IMG/VR virus record: IMGVR_UViG_3300022934_000063
Location: 1-37,741 of that record
Length of the DNA: 37,741 nt
Strand: one strand, 5' to 3'
From: a virus
Both the position numbers and the translations under genes were made by a program. Shown piece after piece: positions 26 to 32,080 of this stretch; the stretch's first letter is position 1; every line of letters begins with the position of its first letter. The notes beneath the pieces are model-generated. The model was given only the letters and a program-made list of their open reading frames with translations. It searched no databases and was not told the origin of the DNA.

Positions 26-124
26 TATGAGTATCGGACTCGGAATCGGGGTGCAGCGCCCCAAGCAATTACGTTCTATTTACAGCGTTAACGGCAAGGT
101 TCCGGGTTTCACCGCGGACTTCAT
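1..124. repeat. Direct repeat copy 1 (124 bp, exact)
   Basis: Bases 1-124 are identical to 35030-35153. The repeat spans the last codons of a small virion-type gene and the first 33 codons of the receptor-binding gene. After base 124 the copies diverge abruptly (a versus t, then many differences), although gene order and protein similarity continue. The window begins exactly where the match begins, which suggests a contig end placed at an assembly branch point or the join of a circular map. Confidence 0.95.
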
Positions 125-3100
125 AAGGAACAAGTACCCTGGTCACTCATCGCTCTCTAGCGCCATAACCCACGCACGTAGTAGCAATGCCACTATGACG
201 GACGGCTATGGGCCTGAGCTTGTTACCAATGGTGGATTCGACAGTGATGTTTCTGGTTGGACTGCTACGGGAGTCATAGAGCGTACTCGCTTAGGGCGTT
301 TGCGCTTGTATGGAGCCTCTCTCACCCCAGATAGATATATACACCAAACACTTACTACCGTATCTGGCAAAACTTATTTAGTCACCGTTGATCTGCGCGA
401 AGAAAGCGGAGGATCTTCCAGAGGTTTAGTGCGCGTTGGTACTTCAGGCGCCAATAGCACCGATCTTCTTAGCTCTTCGTATTTTGGTGAAGGCAGTCAG
501 ACATTCACTTTTATTGCTACAGGGACTTCGTCAACTTTAACGCTATTCTGGGATGACTCAGGTACTAGCGACTATTCTGAATGGGACAACGTAAGCGTTC
601 GAGAGATGCCTGTTCTCAAATGGGCGCCGCATAATCTGCTGACGTACTCTGAGGATTTCTCTAATGCGGCTTGGACTAAGTCTCAAACATCCGTCACAGT
701 CAACCAAACAACCGCTCCAAATGGCACGTTAACTGCCGACTTAGTAACATACACAACAAACTCAGCCGCTTACATTGCAAAAAGTGTTTCGTCGCTTCTT
801 TCAGAACACCCGTATTCAGTAGGGTTTTATGTAAAAAGAAATTCAAAAAGTTTAATTCAATGGCTGTCTACTGGTAATTCTAATTATTACGCTAATTTTG
901 ATATTGAAAACGGAACCTTAGGAAGCAGTGGCTCCCTTGTCTCAAACGAATCTATAACTGACGTTGGAGATAATTGGTATTTTTGTTCTTTTACAGTGAC
1001 GCTAGATTCAAACGATGCTGGTATGAGCTATCGAATTTACGGCATTGACTCATTAACAGATTCTTACGCCGCAGGCTCTACTTCTGGTGGATCTTTATAT
1101 CTCTGGGGCGCACACCTCTACCGCTCTGACTTAGGCGGCATGGTAGACAACCCTGAGCGTGGAGACTCATACGTCCCTACGGCGGTGAGTCTTACAGGAT
1201 CTAACCTAGTTCAGAATGGAGATTTTGCGACGGACTCTGAATGGACTAAGGGTACTGGTTGGACGATCTCTGGTGGTGTTGCTAGTGTTGATTCGGTGGC
1301 AAATTCTAATCCCACACTAAGTCAAGACATAGGCGCAACTAATGATTTCTATGCGGTAACGCTCGACGTTATTTCTACTAATGGAACAGGAGTGCTAGAG
1401 GTTTATCACATAAACTTAGGCGCAAGCATATCGTTTGATATTTCAAGCACTGGTACTAAAACAGTTTATTTAAGTGGAGGAACACACGCATCAAACGGAC
1501 AAATTAGCTTGAGGGCGCGTGGTGGATTTATAGGCTCCATAGATAACGTAAGCGTCCTTAGATCGGCTGTTAAACCTAATGCCGCACGTTTCCTCCCGCG
1601 CGTAGGCCACCACGTTTTCAATGGCGACGCATGGGTTAACGAAGGGGTACTGGCTGAGTCTGAGCAAAGGGTTAATCTTTGGCTATATAGCAACGATCCT
1701 ACCGATGCGGCGTGGAGTTTTGCTAATGACGTAACGCGTCCGACTTCTGCATCTTTAGCAGGCCCCGACGGACAGACTTCGGGATATTCTTTGATTCCAA
1801 CAACGGCTGGTAGCTCTCACTACGTTTCCCAGTCTTTTTCCTTAACGTCAGGCAACGATTATACGCTTTCTTTTTACCTTAAAGAAAATGGTTATCGTTA
1901 TGCTCAGATTATTATTGGCGGTGCGTATTCTGCTGACGATTACGCAAATTTTGATTTACAAGACGGAGTGATTGGAGACGTATCAACAGCGGCGACTGCA
2001 ACAATTCAAGACGTAGGCAATGGCTGGTTTAGATGTTCTTGTACATTTCCAGCGGATGCAACAGCAACAGGACATTCTGGTATTGGGTTTATTGAAAGCT
2101 TAACAGACGGACGAGTGCCTATTTTTGCAGGTGATGGCACATCAGGCATTTACGTCTACGGCGCACAGCTGGAACAAGCATCCACACCGTCAAGCTACAT
2201 TCCAACGTCTACACAACAGGGGACAAGAGAGGCTGAGTCCTTCACTATCCCATCAGCTAACCTACCGTGGCCTACGCCGCAGTACATTGGTGACGAGTTA
2301 GTGACTGACATTTCACCGTCCGCTTGGACAGCAAGTGGTTCGAATACGGTTACGCAAGACGCAAGCGGTAATACGGTTATTACTTATGTTGATTCATCAA
2401 ACGGCGCAGATTTTTTGTTAACCACAGCAAACGGCGGCTTAACGCAAAATTTAGTTAGCGGCAAACTTTATGAGTTTTCTGTAACATTAGACACAGGCGG
2501 AGACACTATAGGGTTGCTTCGTGCTACATCGCTGACTCCGAATTACAATATAAACGTAACAACCAGCGGTTTTGAAACATTTACACATATTTTTATGTCA
2601 GACGGTAGCGAGCTTTTTCGAGTAGACTCAATGGGAGCAGGAGAAGTAGCTACAATTAGCAGTGTCAGCGTCCGCGAGATCAGCCCACTGTCTGTTTCTA
2701 TCGCCATGGAAGGCCGCATGACATATGCTGATACTAGTTCTACTTCGGAAGTTACTTTCGTTGGATGGCCCGGAGCTGGAAGTCAGCCTTATATCCGAAA
2801 CTTTATGAGAACAAATGGAAGCTATAAAGGCGCTCTACTTTTTAAGCAATATGATGGATCAACAGCTGATAACGCTTTTGAATCAGTTCCCGGATCTTAC
2901 TCACCTGACATCCTTGTCCCCTACAACATCGCATCACGCCACGGCTCAACCTTTGTAAACGGCGCAATAGACGGTGTAGCCCTAACGGCTGACACAACCC
3001 CTGTGGCCCTCCCTGATCTCTCTAGCACTGACTTGAATCTAGCCTATGACTACATGGGAACCATCTCAGAGTTCCGTGTATGGGACAAAGACATCGGTGA

Positions 3101-3203
3101 CGCTGGTATTGTAGAGGCAACCAATCCATCGCTAGAGCCATCCCTGAGTCTTGAATTTTCAGGACTTGCTAATTCGTTTGTTGTTAATGATTGGAGTGAG
3201 TAA
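27..3203 (+). CDS. Modular tail fibre / receptor-binding protein A, copy 1
   Basis: A 1058-residue protein, probably a distal tail component that contacts surface glycans. Residues 1-33 form an invariant anchor (MSIGLGIGVQRPKQ...). Several beta-rich modules follow; three open with xLVTNGGF/NLVQNGDF or ELVTD and two close with IDNVSV or VSVRE, a pattern I associate with CBM4/9-like carbohydrate-binding folds. The C-terminal part (about 885-1058), containing YDYMGTISEFRVWD, resembles a LamG/concanavalin-like domain. ATG 27 follows the upstream stop by one base, and the stop overlaps the next start (TAATG). Against the second copy (35056-37689) it carries one extra module at about residues 388-518. 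No enzymatic motif was seen. Tail-fibre role is inferred from domain type and neighbours. Confidence 0.8.
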   Translation: MSIGLGIGVQRPKQLRSIYSVNGKVPGFTADFIRNKYPGHSSLSSAITHARSSNATMTDGYGPELVTNGGFDSDVSGWTATGVIERTRLGRLRLYGASLTPDRYIHQTLTTVSGKTYLVTVDLREESGGSSRGLVRVGTSGANSTDLLSSSYFGEGSQTFTFIATGTSSTLTLFWDDSGTSDYSEWDNVSVREMPVLKWAPHNLLTYSEDFSNAAWTKSQTSVTVNQTTAPNGTLTADLVTYTTNSAAYIAKSVSSLLSEHPYSVGFYVKRNSKSLIQWLSTGNSNYYANFDIENGTLGSSGSLVSNESITDVGDNWYFCSFTVTLDSNDAGMSYRIYGIDSLTDSYAAGSTSGGSLYLWGAHLYRSDLGGMVDNPERGDSYVPTAVSLTGSNLVQNGDFATDSEWTKGTGWTISGGVASVDSVANSNPTLSQDIGATNDFYAVTLDVISTNGTGVLEVYHINLGASISFDISSTGTKTVYLSGGTHASNGQISLRARGGFIGSIDNVSVLRSAVKPNAARFLPRVGHHVFNGDAWVNEGVLAESEQRVNLWLYSNDPTDAAWSFANDVTRPTSASLAGPDGQTSGYSLIPTTAGSSHYVSQSFSLTSGNDYTLSFYLKENGYRYAQIIIGGAYSADDYANFDLQDGVIGDVSTAATATIQDVGNGWFRCSCTFPADATATGHSGIGFIESLTDGRVPIFAGDGTSGIYVYGAQLEQASTPSSYIPTSTQQGTREAESFTIPSANLPWPTPQYIGDELVTDISPSAWTASGSNTVTQDASGNTVITYVDSSNGADFLLTTANGGLTQNLVSGKLYEFSVTLDTGGDTIGLLRATSLTPNYNINVTTSGFETFTHIFMSDGSELFRVDSMGAGEVATISSVSVREISPLSVSIAMEGRMTYADTSSTSEVTFVGWPGAGSQPYIRNFMRTNGSYKGALLFKQYDGSTADNAFESVPGSYSPDILVPYNIASRHGSTFVNGAIDGVALTADTTPVALPDLSSTDLNLAYDYMGTISEFRVWDKDIGDAGIVEATNPSLEPSLSLEFSGLANSFVVNDWSE

Positions 3204-4837
3204 TGGGAACGAAGACGTATAACAACTACGAAGATCTAATTACTTATACCCGCGCATCTAAAGGCCATGCGTTGCGCCCTGTTAGCTATGGGGATGAGCT
3301 TGTAACAAATGGTACCTTTAATACTGATGTTTCTGGGTGGACAGAGACTGACGCTACTACCGTTTCTCTATCTTATGATGCTGGGCGGTTAAGAGTTCTT
3401 AGTACAGCTCCATATGAAGGCGTTTACCAAGACATTACAACAACCGTTGGTCGCATCTACAGCTTTACAAGAACAGTTGAAGGCGGGACAGGTACTTTAC
3501 GCTTTAGGACTTATGCGGGTCCAGCATCAGGCGGTTTGGTAGATTTAGGTGGTATTTCAGCTATAGATAACGGTGCAGGTTCTACTGAAACTTTTATATT
3601 TATAGCAACGTCAACGACAACCAGAATACAAATGCAATCATGGAACACTTTTGCTGATTTTTGGTTAGACAACATCAGCGTCAAAGAAGTCACCTTCGAC
3701 GAATCAGACGGCACCCTAACGTTATTCGAGCATCCCGATAACGTCCCCCGTGTAGAGTGGGATAGCGCAGGTAACAGGCTGGGTTTGCTGGTGGAGGAAG
3801 CTAGGACTAATTTGTTGCCTTACTCTGAAGACTTTACTGTTCAATCAGGTCGTTGGGCTAACGGACAAAAAGGCGACACGTCTCTCACTTCAGGCTTAAC
3901 AGAGTCTCCAAGCATGTCAGATAGCGTTTGGAAACTTTTTGCTACCTCAGGGACAGGAACACAAATTATTCAAGAAGACGCTACTGTTTCTGGAGCAACG
4001 AATGTAGTAGGTTCTGTTTACTTAAAAAAAGCAGAATATAAATACGGCGGCATTAGGCTTTTAGATTCGAGTCCAAGTACGGGATATTCTGTATTTATTG
4101 ATTTAGATGACGGCAGTGTTTTTGATACTTCCACCAGAGGTACACCGACAACTTCTGACTACCGTGTACAAGACGCTGGTAATGGTTGGTGGAGACTTTC
4201 CGTAATTACGTCATCTGACGGCGGGTCGGTAAATTTTACTGTTGGAATTAGCGACGGAACTTCAATAAACAGCTTTGATTGTGTTTCTTTTGCTGGAGAC
4301 GGCACTAGTGGTATCTACATTTGGGGCGCTCAAGTAGAAGAAGGCTCATTCCCCACCAGTTACATGAAAAACGAAGGCACTGCTAGTGGTAAGGATAGAT
4401 CGGCTGACGTAGCGTCTATCCCCGTGGCTGACTTTGGGTTTAACCAGAGTGCTTTTACTTTGCTTTTAAATGCCTCATGGCAACATGGCTCTCTATCCAA
4501 TAAGGCTGTTGATCTTACAAACAGCAATGACTCAGAAAGAGTTTTAATTTACAACAGAGGAGGCACCGTTGGTTCTTATGCCGTTTGGGATGGGAATAAT
4601 GTTCAAGCCGTAAGTGATGGTATTTCATCAACTACAGATTTTATTAAAGTCGGAGTTGGAATTGCTGAAAATAATTTTGCATTAATAAATAACGGCGTTG
4701 TTACTAGTACAGATACACTTGGGACAGTTCCAACGCCAACTGATTTAAAAATGCGAGACTTTAACGGCCACATCAAGTCCATCCAGTATTACCCGCGAAG
4801 ACTCACGAACGCCCAGATCCAAGCGTTAACCTCATAG
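3203..4837 (+). CDS. Modular tail fibre / receptor-binding protein B
   Basis: A 544-residue protein starting at an ATG that overlaps the stop of protein A, so the two are likely translationally coupled. It opens with MGTKTYNNYEDL and contains a CBM4/9-like module beginning DELVTNGTF and ending DNISVKEV at about residue 170. Next comes the segment GLLVEEARTNLLPYSEDF, which I recall from many marine phage tail proteins, then a second beta-rich module ending GIYIWGAQVEEG, and a LamG-like C-terminus ending in HIKSIQYYPRRL. It shares seam motifs with protein A, so the two are probably paralogous parts of one host-recognition apparatus. The start of a diverged homologue lies at 37689-37741. Confidence 0.75.
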   Translation: MGTKTYNNYEDLITYTRASKGHALRPVSYGDELVTNGTFNTDVSGWTETDATTVSLSYDAGRLRVLSTAPYEGVYQDITTTVGRIYSFTRTVEGGTGTLRFRTYAGPASGGLVDLGGISAIDNGAGSTETFIFIATSTTTRIQMQSWNTFADFWLDNISVKEVTFDESDGTLTLFEHPDNVPRVEWDSAGNRLGLLVEEARTNLLPYSEDFTVQSGRWANGQKGDTSLTSGLTESPSMSDSVWKLFATSGTGTQIIQEDATVSGATNVVGSVYLKKAEYKYGGIRLLDSSPSTGYSVFIDLDDGSVFDTSTRGTPTTSDYRVQDAGNGWWRLSVITSSDGGSVNFTVGISDGTSINSFDCVSFAGDGTSGIYIWGAQVEEGSFPTSYMKNEGTASGKDRSADVASIPVADFGFNQSAFTLLLNASWQHGSLSNKAVDLTNSNDSERVLIYNRGGTVGSYAVWDGNNVQAVSDGISSTTDFIKVGVGIAENNFALINNGVVTSTDTLGTVPTPTDLKMRDFNGHIKSIQYYPRRLTNAQIQALTS

Positions 4838-25038: not shown

Positions 25039-26259
25039 ATGATGCGCAATCTAGCAAAAGCGTTTACGCCTAATGAAGCAGAACAAGTAATAGAAAAAAT
25101 AGAGCTTACAGAAAAACAAAAAGAAGCCGCAGAGATGTGCTGGATACAAGGCTACTCTCTTCACAAGGCGGCGGAGCTGCTTCATGTAAATCGCGGCACA
25201 ATCAAAGAGCGATTGCAGGTGGTCGTAAAGAAGAGCGCACTGCAGGGCTTCTCGCCACGCCACGATCAAGTAAACCCCGTACCCGAGGGGCAGGTGATCA
25301 AGGGCGAGTCGATTTTATACGACGCCGATAACAAGCCCATTATGACGTGGGTAAAGACGCGGGCAGACACTGAAAAGCAACTGGAGGTCATGCGCGAGAT
25401 AGTTAAGGGTATGGCAGACGAGATAGAGCCAGCAAAACCTGTAAAGGCGCCCAAAATAAACGCAGACCACTTGTGCAACTGCTTTGTGATCACCGATTAC
25501 CACATGGGTATGCTTGCTGATAAGGACGAGGTGAACGCATCCGGCCAAACGCAAAACGATGACTGGGACTTGAAGATAGCGGAGCGGACACTAATTAAAT
25601 GGTTTGCAGAGGCGATCAGGATAAGCCCCGCAGCCGACACCGCCGTGTACGCGCAACTTGGTGACTTCGCGCACTACGACTACGAACCCCTCACCCAGGC
25701 TTCCAAGCATTTACTAGACAGCGACTCGCGTAATTTTAAGATCGTCCGAGCCACGATTCGCGTGACACGCCAGATCATCAAGATGCTTTTAGAGAAGCAC
25801 AAGGCGGTGCATATAAAGTGGTGTGACGCCAACCACGACCCGTTCTCTGCCATCTGGATGAGAGAGCTACTGACTGCCTTGTACGAGAAAGAGCCAAGGG
25901 TGTTTATAGATAACACAGCCGACACCTATTACTGCTACGAGTTTGGGAAGACGGCCCTCTTCTTCCATCACGGCCACAAAAGGAAGGTCGCTAACGTGGA
26001 CACGGTTTTCGCCGCCAAGTATCGGGAGGTATTCGGCAGGACAGAACACGCCTACGCACATATGGGCCACTATCACTCAATCGACAAAAAAGAAACAAAT
26101 TTGATGGTGGTCGAGCAACACCGGACGTTAGCCAGTGCTGATTCTTACAGCAGCCGAGGTGGCTGGCTCAGTGGCCGAGAGGCTAATGTGATCACTTATC
26201 ACAAGGAATACGGTCAGGTAGCGTATAATACAATTTCCTATAAGATGATCGCAGAGTGA
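25039..26259 (+). CDS. HTH-metallophosphoesterase fusion (406 aa)
   Basis: Starts at ATG 25039 behind GGGGGAG. Residues about 23-62 form an HTH (KAAELLHVNRGTIKERLQ). Residues about 145-350 carry calcineurin-like metallophosphoesterase motifs in order: ITDYHMGM (Asp153, His155), GDF (Asp209), ANHD (264-267), HHGH (310-313) and GHYHS (343-347). These make a two-metal phosphodiesterase site. Similar HTH-linked phosphoesterases occur in phage early regions and may act on nucleic acid ends or nucleotides. The substrate is unknown. The enzyme call is firm; the DNA-related role is inferred. Confidence 0.8.
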   Translation: MMRNLAKAFTPNEAEQVIEKIELTEKQKEAAEMCWIQGYSLHKAAELLHVNRGTIKERLQVVVKKSALQGFSPRHDQVNPVPEGQVIKGESILYDADNKPIMTWVKTRADTEKQLEVMREIVKGMADEIEPAKPVKAPKINADHLCNCFVITDYHMGMLADKDEVNASGQTQNDDWDLKIAERTLIKWFAEAIRISPAADTAVYAQLGDFAHYDYEPLTQASKHLLDSDSRNFKIVRATIRVTRQIIKMLLEKHKAVHIKWCDANHDPFSAIWMRELLTALYEKEPRVFIDNTADTYYCYEFGKTALFFHHGHKRKVANVDTVFAAKYREVFGRTEHAYAHMGHYHSIDKKETNLMVVEQHRTLASADSYSSRGGWLSGREANVITYHKEYGQVAYNTISYKMIAE

Positions 26260-27689: not shown

Positions 27690-28481
27690 ATGCGTGTCTT
27701 AGATTTATTCGCTGGCATCGGCGGTTTCACACTTGGCCTTGAAAGGGCTGGGTTTGAGACCGTCGCTTTCTGTGAGATAGAACCTTACGCTCAGAAAGTC
27801 TTACGCAAAAATTGGCCAGAGGTGCCTATTTATGACGACGTCAGAACAATCACAGCAGACCGACTTATTTCCGATGGAATTAGAGTCGATGTCATCACAG
27901 GCGGATTCCCCTGCCAAGACATCTCAGTCGCAGGAAACCAAGCGGGCATCGCAGACGGAACGCGCAGTGGGCTATGGTCAGAGTGCGCCCGTCTTATTGG
28001 GGAGCTTCGACCTCGATACGCCATCTTTGAGAACGTCAGAAACTTGCTTAGTGGAGAGCGGGGAGCTTGGTTTAAACGAGTTCTCTGGGACATTTCCGCG
28101 CTCGGGTATGATGCGGAGTGGCACTGTATACCAGCTTCCGAACTTGGCGCGCACCATCACAGAGATAGGGTCTGGATTATCTGCTACCCAAAACAGAAAG
28201 TGGCCGACTCCCTCTACGAGAGACTACAAAGGGGGATACATCGGCGGCAGGATAAGGAACGGCAAGGTGAGTTGGGACACGCTAGATGTGGCAGTGCAGC
28301 ATACGGACAACCAACAGAAAACGAATGGGACATTGAACCCAACGTGGGTAGAGTGGCTAATGGGGTTCCCGATAGGTCACACAGACTTAAATGCTTAGGT
28401 AATGCAGTCGTTCCGCCAATACCAGAGCTTATCGGCAGAGCAATCATGGAGGCAGAAAATGACGACAATTGTATTCAATAG
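27690..28481 (+). CDS. DNA cytosine-C5 methyltransferase
   Basis: A 263-residue enzyme with C5-methyltransferase motifs in order: I (LDLFAGIGGF, residues 4-13), IV (GGFPCQDIS with catalytic Cys75), VI (ENVRNLL at 114-120), VIII (HRDRVW, residues 157-162) and IX-X (CLGNAVVP at 235-242). The start is ATG 27690, directly after the upstream stop. The target-recognition region between VIII and IX is only about 60 residues, making it shorter than most (about 320-420 residues). It would methylate cytosines in phage DNA to evade restriction or mark DNA; the target site cannot be read off. A second reading frame of 188 codons is nested inside it (27832-28398). Confidence 0.93.
   Translation: MRVLDLFAGIGGFTLGLERAGFETVAFCEIEPYAQKVLRKNWPEVPIYDDVRTITADRLISDGIRVDVITGGFPCQDISVAGNQAGIADGTRSGLWSECARLIGELRPRYAIFENVRNLLSGERGAWFKRVLWDISALGYDAEWHCIPASELGAHHHRDRVWIICYPKQKVADSLYERLQRGIHRRQDKERQGELGHARCGSAAYGQPTENEWDIEPNVGRVANGVPDRSHRLKCLGNAVVPPIPELIGRAIMEAENDDNCIQ
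27832..28398 (+). CDS. Nested overprinted gene within methyltransferase (188 aa)
   Basis: A complete +1-frame reading frame inside the methyltransferase. ATG 27832 has AGAGG at 27818-27822, nine bases upstream. The protein has SLRTSE (65-70), FSGTFPRSGMMRSG (84-97), TEIGSGL (110-116), WPTP (124-127) and LNPTWVEWLMGFP (168-180). I recognise these as a phage protein family usually found beside C5 methyltransferases. In the DNA the family's WVEWLMGFP is the +1 reading of the methyltransferase's GRVANGVP segment, and TEIGSG is that of HHRDRVW. So the two families share DNA in two frames. Translation is inferred from the start signal and the conserved motifs, not shown; a spurious frame is the alternative. 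Confidence 0.55.
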   Translation: MTTSEQSQQTDLFPMELESMSSQADSPAKTSQSQETKRASQTERAVGYGQSAPVLLGSFDLDTPSLRTSETCLVESGELGLNEFSGTFPRSGMMRSGTVYQLPNLARTITEIGSGLSATQNRKWPTPSTRDYKGGYIGGRIRNGKVSWDTLDVAVQHTDNQQKTNGTLNPTWVEWLMGFPIGHTDLNA

Positions 28482-30085: not shown

Positions 30086-31343
30086 ACTACCGCCTAAACT
30101 AGCTGACCTGTTTACAGGTGAGGCTAGGTATCGCTGTTCCTACGGTGGTAGAGGCTCTGCTAAGACACGCTCATTCGCATTGATGACCGCGGTATGGGGA
30201 ATGCGCTGGGGTGTTTCTGGCAAGCAGGGCCAGATACTGTGCGCACGTGAACACCTCAACTCTCTTGACGAGTCCTCAATGGAAGAGGTCAAGTCAGCCA
30301 TACGCTCGGTAGACTGTCTTAGTAGTTATTACGAGATAGGCGAGAAGTACATCCGATCTAGAGATGGCAGGATTACCTATGTCTTCTCTGGTCTTCGCAG
30401 GAACCTGGATAGCATTAAGTCTAAGGCTCGCATTCTCTTATGCTGGGTGGACGAGGCAGAGACTGTTACCGAGACAGCATGGCAGAAGCTTATCCCTACA
30501 GTACGAGAGGACGACTCCGAAATATGGGTGACATGGAACCCGGAGTCTAAACAGTCAGCGACTCACAACCGTTTCAGGGTTAATGAGCCAGACCAGTGCA
30601 AGATTGTGGAGATGAATTGGCGGGATAACCCGTGGTTTCCTGATGTACTCGAACAAGAGCGACAGGAAGACTTTAAAAAACGCCCCGACGTTTATGAGCA
30701 TATATGGGAAGGTGACTTCAGGATCTTCTCAGAGGGCGCCTACTACACGCAGGAAATGGCTAATGCGTTACACGAGGGCAGGATAGATCGCGTCCCTTAC
30801 GAGCGCTCAGTCGGCGTGGTGACAGCCTGGGACTTAGGTGTCGGCGATTCCACGGCCATCTGGTTTGCGCAGTTTGTCGGTCCAGAAGTGAGGCTCATTG
30901 ATTACTACGAAAACGCCGGAGTGGGATTAGATCACTACGCGCGCATCCTGCAGGAAAAGGGCTACATTTACGAGCAGCACATCCTGCCGCATGACGTCCG
31001 AGTACGAGAGCTAGGCAGCGGCCGGTCACGGTTAGAGGTGCTGGATAACCTTCGGGTAACGCCTGTTCAAATCGCTCCGCAGTTGAACGTGGACGACGGC
31101 ATCCAGGCCGTTAGGTCTATGCTCGATCTTTGTTGGTTCGACAAGGACAAGTGCGAGAAGGGCATCGACTGCCTGAGACAGTACCGCCGGCAGTACAACG
31201 AGACCATGCAGGTCTGGGCTGAGAGGCCGTTACACGACTGGACATCACACTGCGCGGACGCATTCAGATACCTTGCCATCGGGTATAGAAAGACCTCTGA
31301 TTGGGGCGAGCCTATACGACGTAACCTAAAGGGGATTGTATGA
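30057..31343 (+). CDS. terL: Terminase large subunit (packaging ATPase/nuclease)
   Basis: A 428-residue motor protein. Walker A GGRGSAKT (residues 30-37), Walker B LLCWVDEAE (about 127-135), coupling motif WVTWNP (157-162), then the nuclease domain with AWDLG (Asp259) and a C-terminal HCADAFRYLAIG. This is the PBSX/Terminase_3-like arrangement. It translocates DNA through the portal and cuts the concatemer. The start TTG 30057 is uncertain; a TTG six bases later would also serve. It overlaps the small-subunit candidate and is coupled to the PAPS-reductase-like gene behind it by ATGA. Confidence 0.95.
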   Translation: MNLSQKVSIELPPKLADLFTGEARYRCSYGGRGSAKTRSFALMTAVWGMRWGVSGKQGQILCAREHLNSLDESSMEEVKSAIRSVDCLSSYYEIGEKYIRSRDGRITYVFSGLRRNLDSIKSKARILLCWVDEAETVTETAWQKLIPTVREDDSEIWVTWNPESKQSATHNRFRVNEPDQCKIVEMNWRDNPWFPDVLEQERQEDFKKRPDVYEHIWEGDFRIFSEGAYYTQEMANALHEGRIDRVPYERSVGVVTAWDLGVGDSTAIWFAQFVGPEVRLIDYYENAGVGLDHYARILQEKGYIYEQHILPHDVRVRELGSGRSRLEVLDNLRVTPVQIAPQLNVDDGIQAVRSMLDLCWFDKDKCEKGIDCLRQYRRQYNETMQVWAERPLHDWTSHCADAFRYLAIGYRKTSDWGEPIRRNLKGIV

Positions 31344-32080
31344 CTGTTGTTGCAAGTTTCAGTGGCGGTCGCTCCAGCGCCATGATGGTTAGTCAGATGG
31401 ACTTGGCTGACGCTTTGGTAATCTTCTGTAACACCGGCAAAGAGATGCCTGAGACGCTGGACTTTGTTAGAGACTGTGAGACGCACTGGGGTGTGCCAAT
31501 CATCTGGTTGGAGTATGCCGGTAAGAAGCAATATAGGGTCGTCGATTACGATACTGCCAGTAGGAACGGCGAACCATTTGAGCAACTGATCACTGACAAG
31601 AATTACCTGCCCAACATGGTCGCTAGATTCTGTACCAGTGAGTTAAAGGTGCTAACAATTGAACGCTATTTGAAAGACCAAGGTATAAGCGAGTGGGAAA
31701 CGGCCGTAGGAATACGCGCAGACGAGCCACGCAGGGTAAGCAAGATGCGCCAGAAAGAGGGCTACTTAACGCCACTGGCCGACAAAGGCATCACTTCGCA
31801 AGACGTTATCGAATTCTGGGCTAATCAGGACTTTGACCTACAACTACCAGCCTCTGGGTTTTACTCGAACTGCGACTTATGTTTCCTAAAAGGCTATGGC
31901 ATCAAACAGTCCCTTGTTAACGAAAACGACAAGCTTGCGATTTGGTGGGCAGATCAAGAGCTACGTCTAGGCGCTCGCTTTCGATCTGATCAACCTAGTT
32001 ATACCGATATGATAGCCGTGTCTGGCAGACAGACAGACTTATGGGGATACGACAGCACCCCTTGCTTCTGCGGTGATTAA
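31340..32080 (+). CDS. PAPS-reductase-like PP-loop ATP pyrophosphatase
   Basis: A 246-residue protein with an N-terminal PP-loop SFSGGRSSA (residues 6-14), then FCNTGKEMPETLDF, and FCTSELK (97-103), a signature of PAPS reductase/FAD-synthetase-like enzymes that adenylate a substrate. Cys178, Cys181 (SNCDLC) and Cys242, Cys244 (PCFCGD) could hold a metal or iron-sulfur cluster, as in DndC-like or tRNA-thiolating relatives. It may act in sulfur transfer or in nucleic-acid modification. Translation is coupled to terL. The substrate cannot be told; sulfate assimilation is possible but no partner genes are present. Confidence 0.8.
   Translation: MTVVASFSGGRSSAMMVSQMDLADALVIFCNTGKEMPETLDFVRDCETHWGVPIIWLEYAGKKQYRVVDYDTASRNGEPFEQLITDKNYLPNMVARFCTSELKVLTIERYLKDQGISEWETAVGIRADEPRRVSKMRQKEGYLTPLADKGITSQDVIEFWANQDFDLQLPASGFYSNCDLCFLKGYGIKQSLVNENDKLAIWWADQELRLGARFRSDQPSYTDMIAVSGRQTDLWGYDSTPCFCGD

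Follow-up and report, generated by a model that had tools for sequence, protein, structure and literature searches.

The locus described here, which lies in a viral DNA stretch of 37,741 nucleotides (IMG/VR record IMGVR_UViG_3300022934_000063, the whole of which we call the window), very probably encodes a two-subunit C5-cytosine methyltransferase (MTase) from one and the same stretch of DNA, a catalytic alpha subunit being complemented by a beta subunit that carries motif IX and a predicted recognition module. Alpha would fold as the catalytic domain, with AdoMet binding, the PCQ nucleophile and motifs I-VIII, and would pick up again with motif X beyond a read-through linker. Beta, which is probably initiated independently at an internal ATG in the +1 frame with its own Shine-Dalgarno sequence, would contribute the target-recognition module and motif IX, and with them the greater part of the small domain responsible for target selection. 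The two chains probably form an M.HhaI-like enzyme, presumably as a heterodimer. This enzyme would methylate the phage DNA, most likely protecting it from host restriction, a role that we assign from what is generally known about orphan MTases of phages (e.g., PMC4190342). The features of the locus are as follows.

27690..28481, + strand: proposed alpha subunit, a C5-cytosine MTase of 263 aa with motifs I, IV (PCQ), VI (ENV), VIII (RDR) and X, and without motif IX
27818..27822, + strand: Shine-Dalgarno-like AGAGG of beta, 9 nt 5' of the ATG at 27832
27832..28398, + strand: proposed beta subunit, a nested +1-frame gene of 188 aa (PHROG 1008)
27832..27834, + strand: beta start ATG, built from the alpha codons TAT GAC (Tyr48-Asp49)
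28081..28122, + strand: beta FSGTFPRSGMMRSG block, the best conserved part of the beta N-terminal region, overlapping alpha immediately upstream of motif VIII
28191..28367, + strand: alpha residues 168-226, a read-through of the module DNA and likely a disordered linker
28201..28311, + strand: beta recognition module WPTPSTRDYKGGYIGGRIRNGKVSWDTLDVAVQH, the putative target-recognition domain (TRD)
28333..28371, + strand: beta motif IX, LNPTWVEWLMGFP, from sequence conservation and the match to single-chain MTases
28377..28475, + strand: alpha motif X, HRLKCLGNAVVPPIPELIGRAI, from invariant residues and AF2

A sequence-only reading had drawn attention to the 188-codon ORF at 27832-28398, and we found it as described, opening with an ATG, lying in frame +1 with respect to the MTase ORF (27690-28481) and having AGAGG nine bases upstream. 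The peptide motifs quoted from its product all occur in the beta translation, and WVEWLMGFP is indeed the +1 reading of GRVANGVP in alpha. The chance of 1 in 8,000 given for such a run is correct under equal codon use, being (61/64)^188, although 188 codons is the distance from ATG to stop, and the stop-to-stop run at the window is 205 codons. That reading also recognised in beta a separate family of phage proteins that occurs near such MTases. The family exists, as PHROG 1008, whose profile is matched by the window beta (E=5.6e-24) and by all 98 of the 98 aligned beta homologues, but it is not a separate gene elsewhere: the tabulated loci have their relatives in the +1 frame of an MTase, and a stand-alone family near MTases was rejected for that reason. 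Nor do two different families appear to share the DNA, as alpha and beta make sense as the subunits of a single C5 methyltransferase.

Alpha carries motifs I, IV, VI, VIII and X, by which a member of PF00145 is recognised. The Pfam match itself (E=4.8e-52) extends only over residues 1-177, and alpha aligns to M.HhaI 12-185 (E=6e-42), i.e., through motif VIII. AF2 gives residues 1-167 as a confident catalytic domain with pLDDT mostly above 85, and Foldseek matches the alpha model to M.HhaI over 167 columns. Invariant in the alpha alignment are PCQ, EN, RxR and the residues of motif X, the last represented by R232, N238 and P242 in A4, and blocks 241-260 reach an AF2 pLDDT of 94-97. A motif IX and a TRD between motifs VIII and X of the same chain are absent from alpha, and motif IX and a module are found in beta instead. 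Between the two conserved parts of alpha, residues 168-226 have a pLDDT mostly around or below 50, and this linker is open yet poorly conserved until its last ~15 residues. Over the part that overlaps beta residues 121-156, the identity of alpha is about that of a beta-preserving null in the window comparison (0.24/0.26, 0.20/0.18 and 0.18/0.15). Stops in the alpha frame across the module region nevertheless number 0 against 271 expected in 108 loci, and 0 against 132 expected at the loci retrieved by searching with beta. Because the linker is kept free of stops though unconserved, alpha must read through the module DNA to reach motif X, and over this part its sequence is of little consequence.

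Beta ends in LNPTWVEWLMGFPIGHTDL, its best-conserved segment, with an identity of 0.88 over residues 169-180 (motif IX), and this segment aligns with the motif IX region of single-chain MTases. Against the PDB, the beta profile gave only a weak match, to motif IX of the plant DRM MTase 4onj (175-195, E=1.8). Motif IX is preceded in the betas by modules of ~37 aa that begin with (W/L)PTP. Their number per beta ranges from 0 to 6 and is mostly 2 or 3, as counted with a simple pattern that short false matches inflate somewhat; the window beta has one, and most relatives have at least two. In 391 pairs of related modules, the three beta codon positions differ by 0.17/0.11/0.49, which is the pattern of a beta-coding region, and beta identity is 0.82, whereas alpha identity is 0.46 against 0.38 in a beta-preserving null. 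The module would be the TRD, since it is placed where C5-MTases carry theirs, between motifs VIII and IX. As alpha is without motif IX, and beta has motif IX plus a module at the TRD position, we take beta to be part of the same enzyme.

The modules are also mobile between loci. The module of the window (cluster T0) occurs in 17 betas, after first modules as varied as T3, T6, T7+T3, T9, T19 and T23, and is present even where the identity of alpha to that of the window is only 37-43%. Judged by this distribution, the modules are shuffled between betas.

Relatives with other frame layouts tell where the module region belongs. In the single-chain MTases of loci L208, L212, L217 and L218, motifs I-VIII, the PTP module or modules, and motifs IX and X are all in one frame. 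In the actinophages Zaka and Samy, alpha stops after motif VIII and beta carries motifs IX and X in one frame. In L206 (1784-2935 and 1845-2714) and L207 (1703-2968 and 1857-2720), the MTase frame includes motifs IX and X, and the +1 frame has PTP modules only. Taken together, these layouts indicate that the module region is the TRD region of C5-MTases and that the frame boundary has moved repeatedly. L210 was considered as a further single chain and rejected, as its single frame yielded no PTP module. Two of the single chains, L217 (1779-2387) and L218 (1800-2399), keep a +1 ORF with a PTP module, as if they had modules in both frames, and the +1 ORF of L217 also carries a TWPRSGM block.

The C-terminal half of beta is homologous to the VIII-X region of the single-chain MTases. 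Betas of two-frame enzymes match this region with E=2e-39 (L204), 3e-36 (Samy) and 3e-6 (window), the window beta aligning mainly via motif IX, with its module link strongest through intermediates. The beta of Samy matches L212 with E=7e-21, including a module that is 68% identical and lies in the beta frame in one and in the alpha frame in the other. On the strength of these alignments, the C-terminal half of beta is nothing other than the recognition region of the MTase itself, kept in frame +1. The proposal that beta was born by overprinting of MTase DNA does not apply to this half, which has an in-frame homologue, and is plausible only for the N-terminal part; beta residues ~1-115, which lie over alpha motifs III-VIII, are plausibly an overprinted extension. 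Within this part, the FSGTFPRSGMMRSG block stands out, with a +1 identity of 0.82 against a null of 0.35 at alpha codons 136-150, and our guess is that it contacts alpha.

The N-terminal region also favours seeing beta as a separate protein, overprinted on the MTase but standing outside the enzyme, that serves regulation or counter-defence, because it is long and has no counterpart in single-chain MTases; moreover, no Pfam match was found for beta, either in the window protein or in any of the 98 members. We nevertheless regard such a separate protein as highly improbable, since motif IX is missing from alpha and present in beta, the C-terminal half of beta is homologous to part of an MTase, and the betas of the actinophages carry motif X as well. 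The AF2 model of beta alone has a pLDDT of 55, and Foldseek found no PDB match for it. Poor single-chain prediction is expected for an obligate partner protein and is not evidence for one.

If beta is a subunit of the MTase, it could be made in more than one way, and the start site bears on this point. M1 of beta is conserved in 98% of the locally aligned homologues. The tyrosine codon at the start site is TAT rather than TAC by 54:10, whereas other upstream tyrosines in the same genes give 13:40 (Fisher p=4.5e-11, an optimistic value since the sequences are related). The preference for TAT and the conservation of M1 argue that the ATG of beta is under selection. A GGAG or AGGAG-like sequence lies at the same spacing 5' of the start in most close homologues; distant homologues vary at the exact start position, which is ATG in 66 and ACG in 10 of the 93 loci counted. 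As an alternative to internal initiation, programmed +1 frameshifting from alpha could give access to the C-terminal part of beta and yield one polypeptide with motifs I-VIII, TRD and motif IX. The single-chain relatives, with the identical motif order in one frame, speak for it, and so does an Endozoicomonas copy (L190, 2459-3220), where frameshifts connect pieces of alpha with pieces of beta. Against it stand the conserved internal ATG with its Shine-Dalgarno sequence and TAT codon bias, as well as the constraint on the +1 frame, which starts at the beta ATG, ~120 codons before the module. We therefore give frameshifting even slightly less credence than a separate protein and favour internal initiation. 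The Endozoicomonas copy, the sole clear exception to an open +1 frame, is probably a decayed gene.

That the +1 frame is under constraint at all was assessed against a null in which the MTase protein and its codon usage are kept and synonymous codons are shuffled, with 400 shuffles per gene. At the window alone, the observed 205-codon run was reached in 1 of 400 shuffles, the mean longest shuffled run being 98 codons. For a set of 122 loci (non-redundant at 85%), the longest +1 runs have a median of 231 codons, where the null predicts 97, and at 101 of these loci a run as long as observed occurs in at most 4 of 400 shuffles. The same test gave no excess for the +2 frame (53 against 59 expected). 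Stops in the +1 frame of homologues had been set beforehand as evidence against a gene, and the homologue set includes loci that were fetched with the MTase as query and hence were not selected for an open +1 frame. All of the viral loci ascertained in this way are open, as are nearly all bacterial and prophage loci, and the frame is open in nearly all of the 122, bacterial ones included. The strict motif-IX pattern is present in the longest +1 run at 103 of the 122 loci, and among the remaining 19 there are many whose motif is a variant (e.g., PETAEQVMGFP) or where the script picked an adjacent ORF.

The constraint has sharp boundaries. In 89 pairs with the window, amino acid identity in the +1 frame is 0.52 inside the overlap against 0.29 in an MTase-preserving null, compared with 0.32 against 0.27 before the beta start and 0.27 against 0.24 after the beta stop. 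The mismatch at alpha third positions in these pairs falls from 0.63 before the overlap to 0.40 inside it and returns to 0.66 after it. With the open frame at the MTase-ascertained viral loci, the conservation above null with sharp edges and the kept start codon, true dual coding, as first proposed from the sequence, is strongly supported, and by these comparisons the +1-frame ORF is a real, conserved second gene. The notion that the open frame is a by-product of MTase conservation and composition, and no gene, can call on the long single runs that do arise in the shuffles, yet it is already refuted at the level of sequence by the shuffle nulls across the loci, by the +1 identity far above null and by a module region whose conserved frame is that of beta and not of alpha, and we give it almost no weight.

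Two-polypeptide C5-MTases are already known in principle. M.EcoHK31I, a characterised C5-MTase of a restriction-modification system with M.EaeI as a relative, recognises YGGCCR, and its subunits of about 309 and 176 aa are similar in size to the window pair; Lee, Kam and Shaw reportedly described in 1995 that its beta gene is nested in that of alpha in another frame. Its larger polypeptide has motifs I-VIII and X, its smaller one has motif IX only, and the predicted TRD was assigned to the larger subunit (PMC3404938). The window has the same partition, with motifs I-VIII and X in the large subunit and motif IX only in the small polypeptide. The gene of the small subunit lies inside that of the large one in another frame, as is said of M.EcoHK31I. 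In contrast to the published assignment, the TRD-like module of the window is conserved in the beta frame and not in the alpha frame, and the prediction for the larger subunit may be wrong. The window locus also differs in being a phage gene, with no restriction enzyme identified adjoining it, and in having many relatives with tandem modules. By motif partition as published, we thus place the window locus with the M.EcoHK31I type, whose mode of working it would share. M.AquI, which recognises CYCGRG, represents another type. It is split into subunits with motifs I-VIII and IX-X (PMC3404938), and Zaka and Samy share this partition, their small subunit having both motif IX and motif X. The window does not, since its motif X is in alpha, and its beta lies wholly inside alpha.

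The multispecific C5-MTases of Bacillus phages have TRDs of ~40 aa. Those of SPR, phi3T and H2 are arranged in tandem (PMC8936443), and the beta family is similar in that its recognition modules, placed between motifs VIII and IX, are exchangeable and occur in tandem. However, the Bacillus phage enzymes are single chains, whereas here a +1-frame subunit carries the modules, of which the window beta has one rather than a tandem. By analogy, those relatives that do carry tandem modules may be multispecific. PHROG 1008, labelled 'DNA methyltransferase', and gp50 of Paenibacillus phage Diva correspond to beta in kind and in position, and are annotated without a mechanism. Phage methylase genes of the ShiLan type also conceal a second ORF, an out-of-frame HNH insertion (PMC11855218), which, unlike beta, is an inserted mobile endonuclease and no part of the enzyme.

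The nested arrangement is widespread. A tblastn search with beta retrieved 174 phage records and at least 595 IMG/VR stretches, and there were also matches in plasmid records and in bacterial genomes. A nested beta is present in phage N15 gene 58, Klebsiella phage S9a, Salmonella phage SI7 and Diva. The unannotated 242-codon +1 ORF inside N15 gene 58 (L201, 1087-1812) has TRD-like modules and motif IX. The N15 record annotates alpha (gene 58) only, and Diva gp50 is annotated as 'g49 internal gene'. An orphan MTase of a Bacillus prophage, predicted to be EaeI-like (YGGCCR), has been discussed as possibly inactive (PMC4722110). A literature search, which reached few subscription papers, found no account of widespread nested MTase subunits in phages. 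Although the two-polypeptide principle is not new, the location of the TRD, the modular arrays and the breadth seem to be; the occurrence in N15, in Klebsiella, Salmonella and Paenibacillus phages and in prophages, a TRD that lies in beta and the tandem shuffled modules all appear to be under-recognised.

Elsewhere in the window, the adjacent genes at 27-3203 and 3203-4837 both match the tail protein PHROG 5939 over overlapping regions of the profile, which suggests a tandem duplication. The gene at 25039-26259 encodes a DNA repair exonuclease (PHROG 704) with an odd N-terminal segment, residues 16-65 also matching sigma-factor profiles. A phosphoadenosine phosphosulfate reductase-like auxiliary gene at 31340-32080 adjoins the terminase large subunit.

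Beyond this one locus, we consider it reasonably likely, with less assurance than we have for the locus itself, that two frames are obligatory for a large share of the C5-MTases of phages and prophages, the specificity subunit being an often unannotated +1 gene made of exchangeable TRD modules. Such modules would act as cassettes, bound to be stop-free in two frames, that are gained, lost and shuffled to give multispecific anti-restriction enzymes. The frame boundary would move between lineages, the layouts being a single chain, an alpha with motifs IX and X accompanied by a TRD-only beta, an alpha with motif X, and an alpha that ends at motif VIII. If this is true, what is annotated in this large group as a phage C5 methyltransferase gene encodes half of an enzyme. 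Alpha alone, when cloned or codon-optimised, would lose the nested subunit and seem inactive, and specificity predicted from alpha would be unreliable, the recognition module being in the other frame. The location of the TRD in the M.EcoHK31I type would be revised. Cases in which dual coding has an evident functional reason are rare; the family would be one of them, with natural variants numbering in the hundreds, and would make constraint, cassette exchange and frame moves in overlapping genes directly testable.
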